Shown: positions 8,241 through 9,460 of the stretch, in pieces
Position numbering within the stretch: the stretch's first letter is position 1
Layout of the letters: each line of letters begins with the position of its first letter
Assembly: GCA_017546245.1 (NCBI GenBank)
Contig: JAFYXI010000006.1
Location: 1-38,116, forward strand
DNA length: 38,116 nt
Direction of reading: 5' to 3'
Source of the DNA: Clostridia bacterium
Lineage (GTDB): Bacteria; Bacillota; Clostridia; UBA1381; UBA9506
Notes under the pieces: model-generated
Database searches by the model: none
Told to the model about the DNA's origin: nothing
Seen by the model: the letters and a program-made list of their open reading frames with translations, nothing else
Position numbers and translations under genes: made by a program

Positions 8241-8432
8241 ATGAAAAGAAGACTTTTACTTGGCGTTTTAGCCATAGCAGCAGTATCTTCTTTTGCCGGC
8301 TGTTCTGCTAAGGATAATATGGAAGCTCCTGTTTCCCCGTCCGCAGCAGTATCAGATATGACTAACGCTGACAAAGGCAGCGATGGCAATTTAATGACAT
8401 CATCGCCGACAGCTAGTGCTGACATAAAATAA
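8241..8432 (+). CDS. Small putative lipoprotein
   Basis: The 63-residue product begins with a classical lipoprotein signal (MKRR, hydrophobic LLLGVLAIAAVSSFAG, lipobox FAGC with Cys21). The remaining 42 residues are Ser/Ala/Asp-rich, low in complexity and probably disordered. RBS AAGGAGG at 8225-8231. I recognise no family; it should be an outer-leaflet-anchored short lipoprotein. It is closed by a strong terminator and followed directly by the tandem RNA array, so a functional link to that array is possible but unproven. Confidence 0.7.
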   Translation: MKRRLLLGVLAIAAVSSFAGCSAKDNMEAPVSPSAAVSDMTNADKGSDGNLMTSSPTASADIK

Positions 8433-8488: not shown

Positions 8489-8525
8489 GTAATTAAATAA
8501 AATTTGGAATAAATTGGAAAAACGC

Positions 8526-8554
8526 TGGACAAATATATGCTCTTGTGTTATAAT
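8526..8554 (+). promoter_or_regulatory. Promoter of RNA unit 1
   Basis: TGGACA (8526-8531), 17-bp spacer, TATAAT (8549-8554). The predicted transcript start (about 8561) is the first base of the outer stem. Confidence 0.8.
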
Positions 8555-8560
8555 ATATTC

Positions 8561-8711
8561 GTCACGCAGTTTAATATTTCAACAAGCAGAAGTTTACGTT
8601 TGCTAAAAACGTAGGCTTAGATTTTCATACTTCTGCTTGTATGAAACTGCGTGACAACAGAAATCGAAGCTACGTTTTTGTGCGTGGCTTCGTCGAAGTC
8701 ACGCATTTTTT
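8561..8711 (+). ncRNA. Structured RNA unit 1 (nested stems plus terminator)
   Basis: The predicted RNA is about 150 nt. Outer stem: GTCACGCAGTTT (8561-8572) with 8644-8655, 12 perfect pairs. Inner stem: ACAAGCAGAAGT (8582-8593) with 8629-8640, 12 perfect pairs. The 35-nt apical loop has a mini-hairpin ACGTTT/AAACGT. Apical AAAAACGTAGGCTT (8605-8618) is complementary, with one bulge, to AAGCTACGTTTTT (8667-8679). That downstream strand can instead pair through GAAGCTACG (8666-8674) with CGTGGCTTC (8683-8691). The latter forms the 5' arm of the terminator (8681-8690/8696-8705, T6). I recognise no known RNA family. Confidence 0.75.
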
Positions 8712-8754
8712 AATTTAAGGAGAAATGAATTTGGAATAAATTGGTAAAAAACAC

Positions 8755-8783
8755 TGGACAAGTCTTGACTTTTGTGGTATACT
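8755..8783 (+). promoter_or_regulatory. Promoter of RNA unit 2
   Basis: TGGACA (8755-8760), 17-bp spacer, TATACT (8778-8783). Transcription should begin at about 8789, at the foot of the outer stem. Confidence 0.75.
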
Positions 8784-8788
8784 TATAT

Positions 8789-8954
8789 TTGCGAAGTAAA
8801 TTTAATATTTTAACTTTAAAGTAAGCTGTATTTTGCTATGTGTAAAAATACATGCTCTTTTTCGTACACTTACTTTAAAGTTTCGAAATTTACTTCGCAA
8901 AAGTTGGAGTTATGTATTTTTCGTGCGTGACTTCAACGAAGTCACGCATTTTTT
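8789..8954 (+). ncRNA. Structured RNA unit 2 (nested stems plus terminator)
   Basis: Same architecture as unit 1 with wholly different stems. Outer stem 8788-8803/8886-8901 is 16 perfect pairs and inner stem 8812-8825/8869-8882 is 14. The apical loop keeps TTTTGCTA, and its AAAAATACAT (8844-8853) pairs perfectly with ATGTATTTTT (8912-8921). In units 1 and 3 both partners read ACGT-type sequence instead, so they co-vary. The alternative helix GGAGTTATG (8906-8914)/CGTGACTTC (8926-8934) survives through G-U pairs. Terminator 8924-8933/8939-8948 is perfectly paired, with T6. RNA about 165 nt. Confidence 0.75.
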
Positions 8955-8997
8955 AATTTAAGGAGGAATGAATTTGGAATAAATTGGTAAAAAATAC

Positions 8998-9026
8998 TGG
9001 ACAAATATATGTTCTTGTGTTATAAT
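8998..9026 (+). promoter_or_regulatory. Promoter of RNA unit 3
   Basis: TGGACA (8998-9003), 17-bp spacer, TATAAT (9021-9026). The predicted start at about 9033 again coincides with the first base of the outer stem. Confidence 0.8.
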
Positions 9027-9032
9027 AATATC

Positions 9033-9183
9033 GCTACACATCTAAATAAAACTAAGTTAAGGTTTACGTTTGGCAAAAACGTTGGCTTTAGGTTTTTATA
9101 CCTTAACTTAGGGTTAGATGTGTAGCAACAATAATCCGAAGCCGCGTTTTTCGTGCGTGGCTTCGTCGAAGTCACGCATTTTT
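9033..9183 (+). ncRNA. Structured RNA unit 3 (nested stems plus terminator upstream of a small ORF)
   Basis: Outer stem 9033-9045/9114-9126 (13 pairs) and inner stem 9052-9063/9100-9111 (12 pairs) again have their own sequence. The apical loop closely resembles unit 1 (TTACGTTTG then AAAAACGTTGGCTT at 9075-9088). That loop segment matches GAAGCCGCGTTTTT (9138-9151) with one bulge. Competing helices are 9138-9146/9156-9164 and the terminator 9154-9163/9169-9178 with T5. The terminator lies between this RNA and the ribosome binding site (9189-9195) of the 59-codon ORF, so readthrough here would control that ORF. Confidence 0.75.
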
Positions 9184-9202
9184 AATTTAAGGAGGAATAA
9201 GT

Positions 9203-9382
9203 ATGGAAGGAACAAATTACAGAGAAATGTATTATTTATTATCTCAGACTGTTGCAGACGTAATTGAACATCTGACAGAAAAGCAAATCGAGCTTGAAGA
9301 AATGTACCTTAATCAAGACAGCGAAAATGAACTGAGAAAGCAAGCAGAAATTAATTCTTTTAAACAAGGAAACTCATGGTAA
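9203..9382 (+). CDS. Small acidic protein of unknown function (59 aa)
   Basis: The ORF runs MEGTNYREMYYLLSQTVADV and continues with a charged helical stretch, ending KQGNSW. It has a strong AAGGAGG at 9189-9195, 7 nt from the ATG, and a strong terminator after it. The opening pattern (xYxxMYxxL, then a long amphipathic helix with EEMY) resembles, from memory, short hypothetical proteins common in Clostridia; I cannot assign a function. It is soluble and probably one or two helices. It lies directly behind RNA unit 3, whose terminator may gate its expression. Confidence 0.7.
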   Translation: MEGTNYREMYYLLSQTVADVIEHLTEKQIELEEMYLNQDSENELRKQAEINSFKQGNSW

Positions 9383-9421
9383 AAAATAAATACATAGCTC
9401 TTGTGTGACCAAACAAAGAAT

Positions 9422-9460
9422 ATCTGCAACAAATATTTATTTTGTTGCAGATGTTTTTTT
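9422..9460 (+). terminator. Intrinsic terminator after the 59-aa ORF
   Basis: ATCTGCAACAAA (9422-9433) pairs perfectly with TTTGTTGCAGAT (9441-9452) across a 7-nt loop, followed by G and seven T residues. Confidence 0.92.

Follow-up and report, generated by a model that had tools for sequence, protein, structure and literature searches.

Three tandem RNA units in a Clostridia genome point to an apparently new family of probable transcription-attenuating leaders

Described systems and the window locus

Riboswitches of the c-di-GMP-I (GEMM) class occur in many copies per genome, in front of diverse genes for surface and secreted proteins. Among the riboswitches acting on transcription, the majority are OFF switches that work by disrupting an antiterminator, and those for preQ1 sequester a 3′ tail once the ligand is bound (PMC2258182). 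An antisense-acting SAM-I riboswitch is also described, in which the attenuator lies downstream of, and opposite to, a gene (PMC2258182). A metagenomic survey of structured RNAs from human microbiomes lists thousands of unnamed candidates (PMC8040213).

The RNAs described here are contained in region 8501-9183 of a 38,116-nucleotide stretch from a Clostridia bacterium (the window). As in the preQ1-I type and other 3′-tail-sequestering riboswitches, which use terminator/antiterminator platforms (PMC2258182), a conserved 3′ tail would be captured by the aptamer side; the OFF-switch and tail-sequestering cases are thus precedents for the mode of working, while the family itself is not among them. 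Unlike the preQ1-I type, which they resemble in neither sequence nor covariance (no Rfam match), the present RNAs have a pseudoknot of 14-16 bp that encloses the two stems P1 and P2, and reach a maximum of ~27 copies per genome. Many copies before surface and secreted protein genes recall GEMM, which makes a global signal plausible; the architecture is different, and the Rfam models give no match to the units. c-di-GMP as a requirement was rejected: GGDEF was found in 12 of 14 unit-bearing genomes and was not seen in the unit-rich drafts G338 and G304, so that this molecule is not clearly required.

At curated gathering thresholds, neither the window units nor 13 further loci match any family of Rfam 15; permissive hits (miRNA families, the L20 leader and LhrC) were taken as chance, since they are far below threshold (24.4 vs 58.7 bits for L20_leader). 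A first reading made from the letters alone, here called the sequence-only reading, had recognized a structured RNA that it could assign to no named family, and the Rfam comparison, together with the covariation reported below, agrees with it. Literature searches, which covered article texts, returned no matching motif; likewise, the main text of the microbiome survey holds none for the terms searched, and the present family could be among its candidates. On the basis of Rfam 15 and of the literature texts searched, the family is apparently new.

The region consists of three units in head-to-tail arrangement with common promoter, loop and terminator, as had been claimed. It is preceded by a small lipoprotein-like ORF (8241-8432), which sits after the PEP carboxykinase gene, and is followed by a 59-aa ORF (9203-9382) and then by mntP. 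Each unit is built of a conserved upstream block, a -35 box TGGACA, an extended -10, two nested stems, an AAAAA loop, an intrinsic terminator and a Shine-Dalgarno sequence; promoter, loop core, terminator and Shine-Dalgarno are common to the three units, and the stem sequences are unit-specific.

All features lie on the plus strand. The promoter of unit 1 (8501-8559) comprises the conserved AATTTGGAATAAATTGG block, the -35 TGGACA and the extended -10 TGTGTTATAAT, with the -10 at 8549-8554; the leader RNA (8560-8711) contains P1 at 8561-8572/8644-8655 (12 bp), P2 at 8582-8593/8629-8640 (12 bp) and the terminator at 8680-8711. A Shine-Dalgarno sequence (8717-8722) is followed only by a 4-codon remnant, ATG AAT TTG GAA TAA. 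In unit 2, the promoter (8728-8787) precedes a leader RNA (8789-8954) with P1 at 8789-8803/8886-8900 (15 bp), P2 at 8812-8825/8869-8882 (14 bp) and the terminator at 8923-8954; here too, a Shine-Dalgarno and four codons are all that separates the unit from the next promoter. Unit 3 has its promoter at 8971-9030 (-10 at 9021-9026) and its leader RNA at 9031-9184, with P1 at 9033-9045/9114-9126 (13 bp), P2 at 9052-9063/9100-9111 (12 bp) and the terminator at 9153-9183. Directly 3′ of the latter lies the Shine-Dalgarno (9189-9194) of the 59-aa ORF (MEGTNYREMYYLLSQ...). Inner stems of 12, 14 and 12 bp had been proposed and are found as such; for the outer stems (12, 16 and 13 bp), the first and the third lengths are correct, while that of unit 2 is 15 and not 16 bp.

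The three units fold more stably than any of 200 dinucleotide shuffles (z -7.9, -7.4 and -7.5 for units 1, 2 and 3, respectively). Control by a leader peptide was discarded, as inspection by eye found no ORF with a Shine-Dalgarno inside the window units, transcription being taken to start at P1.

Covariation, distribution and promoters of the family

A 20-sequence alignment was built from similar loci of the window genome and its relatives. In this alignment 88% of the cells pair, and 32 of the 56 pairs have changed on both sides, values that none of 500 shuffles matches; when the partners are slid by 1-3 columns, pairing drops to 35-51%. The stems of the family behave as proposed for the three window units, differing in sequence and remaining paired, and G-U pairs are tolerated in them. 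A covariance model, R1, was made from the 20 units with the nested stems and the terminator, leaving the pseudoknot out. It recovers window units 1, 2 and 3 with E-values of 5.7e-16, 6.1e-23 and 9.3e-14, which are a rough guide; R1 was trained partly on unit 1.

R1 gives 28 matches in the window genome, two of them overlapping. It finds units in 77 of the 95 genomes of the order, and in 92 of 391 genomes of the class, belonging to 51 of 220 genera and to ~20 families; in a sample of 299 genomes of the phylum, which serves as a negative control, the only match is the window's own genome. The clean phylum-wide control and the matches in ~20 families answer the concern that homologues might diverge without compensation. 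The system is apparently undescribed, as the sequence-only reading supposed, but it is not a private set of three copies, being instead a family spread across the class. Under laxer filters ten other genomes have 7-27 matches each, often as tandem pairs, which recur from genome to genome. The named records with units belong to uncultured Clostridia, Oscillospiraceae, Ruminococcus and Eubacterium; gut and rumen metagenomes are the source of most of them, and most of the genomes sampled are likewise metagenome assemblies. One unit (L114) comes from a contig that is recorded under Bacteroides sp. and was probably misbinned, its true origin being Clostridia. With its presence in about a quarter of the sampled class genomes, at up to ~27 copies each, the family would count as one of the more common regulatory RNAs in gut Clostridia; despite this abundance, it has no Rfam model.

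The promoter extends to the whole family, since a -10-like box (at least 4 of 6 positions) is present in 101 of 101 members; it ends 4-5 nt ahead of the model start in 78 of them, and the extended -10 TG is found in 84. At the other end, the units close with a hairpin and a U run. This geometry bears on the nature of the element, for which the sequence-only reading had left RNA and DNA cruciform side by side. Perfect inverted repeats of varying sequence are what cruciforms or recombination sites similar to integron attC would also display; however, such DNA structures leave unexplained the extended -10 at fixed spacing in most units, the intrinsic terminator and the distance to the start codon, and the acceptance of G-U pairs and the mutually tuned pseudoknot and antiterminator described below also count against them. 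The RNA half of that reading is retained, and the DNA half is very improbable.

In folds computed with the pseudoknot strand kept open, P1 is mostly 12-22 bp long; P1 and P2 are merged in some of these folds, so that mean stem lengths are rough. The segment joining P1 to P2 contains an AATA-type motif within 3 nt in 61 of the 101 units, vs ~12% in the flanking background. The top of P2 is GUGUGU/GCAUAC-like, and a U-rich segment connects it to the loop; a U-A-U triple helix was considered, as a speculation. The majority of the conserved bases take part in pairing in at least one of the two states; the candidate unpaired ones are the AATA motif and the U-rich joining segment. A second type of unit, with the loop AAAAACGCAAATTCC or similar and a longer insert, is present at L052, L054, L055, L059, L024 and L025; L053 has the 3′ portion of this type.

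Alternative pairings and the proposed attenuation

Several features had escaped the sequence-only reading: the small ORF that follows unit 3, the numerous dispersed copies and, within the units, a pseudoknot and an antiterminator. In unit 2, the strand 3′ of the outer stem (GGAGTTATGTATTTTT) is complementary, with one bulged base, to the loop (AAAAATACATGCTC), forming a pseudoknot (8844-8857 with 8906-8921); an antiterminator results if this strand pairs instead with the terminator's 5′ arm (GTGCGTGACTTCAAC), to which it is complementary as well. Since both pairings use one 3′ strand, they are mutually exclusive, and the mechanism can be tested by simple compensatory mutants. In unit 1 the pseudoknot spans 8605-8679, loop strand 8605-8623 pairing with 8662-8679 (-16.5 kcal/mol) outside the model structure, and the terminator 5′ arm alternatively pairs with 8662-8679 (-17.7 kcal/mol); in unit 3 the pseudoknot is formed by 9075-9094 and 9133-9151.

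The pairing between loop and 3′ strand is found in all of the 101 distinct units, at -13 to -22 kcal/mol, though R1 contains no pseudoknot. When strands were swapped among 71 non-redundant units, the mean energy changed from -12.1 (own) to -9.9 kcal/mol (swapped) for the pseudoknot, with z -9.6, and from -17.6 to -13.3 kcal/mol for the antiterminator, with z -12.0; such permutations ignore the relatedness among units, so that the z values overstate independence and are a rough guide. A second run of the test took 42 units whose loci lie outside the order and which had no part in model training; it gave z -6.0 for the pseudoknot and -7.1 for the antiterminator. These units were selected with a descriptor composed of the outer stem, the terminator and a nine-position pseudoknot core, so that this second test informs mainly about the antiterminator and about the pseudoknot outside that core. 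Among the 42, L183+1916 is probably a spurious unit. In the 20-sequence alignment, both sides have changed in 7 of 15 pseudoknot pairs and in 13 of 16 P1 pairs. In the antiterminator register 93% of the cells are paired, vs 20-45% when slid; the exclusion of the terminator by the antiterminator is thus found as sequence complementarity and as covariation.

These data suggest, with a probability of about 0.7, that the units are a new family of cis-acting, riboswitch-like leader RNAs, which attenuate transcription and in which formation of the pseudoknot shifts the balance towards termination. Transcription would start at or beside the first base of P1; P1 and P2 would form first and display a loop of the AAAAA-yGCAu-GCUC type. 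The strand emerging after P1 could then either pair with the loop, giving the pseudoknot, or later with the 5′ arm of the terminator, giving the antiterminator. In the former case the strand would be retained, the terminator would fold and the RNA would end at ~150-165 nt; where the pseudoknot is blocked or undone, the antiterminator would form and the polymerase would enter the gene, whose start codon is usually ~19-20 nt further on. The choice might be set by a cellular signal (a small molecule, a protein or an RNA) through the conserved core, and the three serial units before a single 59-aa ORF may be stacked promoter/attenuator modules. Computed with the pseudoknot left out, the two states, antiterminator and terminator, differ little in energy (by 0.6 kcal/mol on average, sd 3.9); addition of the pseudoknot duplex favours termination by ~12 kcal/mol, a value that ignores the loop cost of the pseudoknot and kinetics. 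From these energy estimates and from the order of synthesis we infer that the pseudoknot is the OFF state.

As for the putative signal, a version of the same attenuation has one global RNA-binding protein as the ligand of the conserved core, with identical RNA mechanics. The stems vary freely, while the loop core and the AATA-type internal loop are conserved, and many unrelated genes would share one control; the same data, however, fit a metabolite equally, and protein control is proposed only tentatively.

Each unit has its own promoter and terminator and could also be a gene for a trans-acting sRNA of 150-165 nt, the loop or the 3′ strand of which pairs with other RNAs; the switch-like pairings would then serve folding or the release of the seed. 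Loop and 3′ strand are nearly alike in all copies, which could therefore pair mutually, and about half of the units have no directly following ORF. On the other hand, the strand that would act as seed has two fully complementary partners in cis, and each of these is matched to the unit in which it lies. A modal spacing of 19-20 nt from terminator to start codon, as half of the loci display, is also unexpected for independent sRNA genes; a trans-acting role is unlikely. The structured RNA of the sequence-only reading stands, and the anatomy suggests a cis-acting attenuator with competing pseudoknot and antiterminator in place of free-standing RNAs alone.

Downstream genes and dispersed partial copies

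Behind 50 of the 101 units, an ORF equipped with a Shine-Dalgarno sequence begins 16-48 nt past the terminator, the rest having no such ORF; the commonest distances from terminator to start are 19 nt (10 units) and 20 nt (8 units). By a crude test, 29 of these 50 ORFs have a hydrophobic N-terminus, resembling a signal peptide or a membrane segment. LRR_5 (BspA-type) is matched by 12 of 41 different downstream proteins, and single or few matches were obtained for dockerin, SLH, Big_2, Cu-amine-oxidase-N, CHAP, trypsin and ABC-transporter domains. One control element would thus link small proteins with numerous surface proteins, those with BspA-type leucine-rich repeats, S-layer or dockerin domains, and would offer a direct handle on the putative signal.

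Relatives of the 59-aa ORF follow units at several other loci; this family has no convincing Pfam match, and tblastn of the small protein against phages gave no match. Other small proteins recur as well: a family of ~77 aa (MNIKVELLKNYISDFINFKIEDFEIDASQIADTTAI...) lies directly behind units in several genomes (L061, L103, L081, L131, L144), Cys-rich proteins (MIIDGPTGIELIPGNGGKDCPGNGENGNECCCDECNY...) are located behind units in other families (L175, L193, L148, L146), and the N-terminus MKQNIKSLVSGIVIGSLLTGG... is common to the proteins behind L132, L138, L146 and L148.

Among the remaining units, 28 face a convergent gene and 19 have a later ORF on the same strand. The convergent genes have no function in common; one phage integrase and one recombinase domain are among them. 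With about half of the units lacking a directly following ORF, and with those 28 facing a convergent gene, not all units can be ordinary leaders. The placement of the convergent ones is that of the antisense SAM-I attenuator (PMC2258182), from which they differ in that a second terminator often follows the units here.

Many units are followed, on the opposite strand, by a partial copy of the 3′ arm of the outer stem and of the pseudoknot 3′ strand. Such copies are found only downstream of units, are always inverted unless they are part of a neighbouring unit, and usually precede a second hairpin terminator; besides the window, they are present at L032, L035, L041, L038, L044 and L048. In the window, the minus strand of the distal site (9388-9418) is a partial copy of P1 3′ arm, linker and pseudoknot 3′ strand, and the site adjoins the second terminator, T2 (9422-9460), an order repeated at other loci. 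The P1 part of the distal sites usually matches other units better than the P1 of its own unit, so that a simple hairpin in cis with the own unit is unlikely; among as many as 27 units, though, one that matches is to be expected. The distal site might serve other units as a pairing partner, or it might be a relic or a piece of the ancestral cassette. Its complementarity to the 3′ strands of other units in the genome would also suit trans-acting sRNAs. Combined with attenuation, it raises the possibility, which we regard as doubtful, of an RNA network: read-through transcripts would pair with other leaders through the distal inverted sites, and a switch class sensing one global signal would set a regulon of surface and small proteins by up to ~27 leaders per genome.

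Up to 27 copies per genome, tandem copies and inverted partial copies on the distal side are also traits of MITE-like sequences, dispersed palindromic repeats whose structure would serve spread and not regulation. In the same-genus genome G002, moreover, the orthologous stretch from the lipoprotein-like ORF to mntP contains none of the three units, and the block was therefore either gained in the window genome or lost in G002; in G001, a unit with a related small ORF is found at a different place. Mobile repeats, however, would hardly differ in their stems and yet remain paired, nor would they preserve promoter, terminator and start-codon spacing with secreted proteins prominent downstream, the model finds nothing outside the class in the phylum sample, and no transposase was noticed in passing beside the units; spread as the sole basis of the structure is accordingly improbable, and regulation by attenuation is preferred. 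A phage or plasmid origin was also rejected, as the exact pattern is absent from viral contigs and plasmids, apart from two fecal 'Bacteriophage sp.' fragments. Another dispersed intergenic repeat (GCAGACCACGCAAAGC...) is located near some units (L003, L020, L167), and it fills the orthologous interval of G002.
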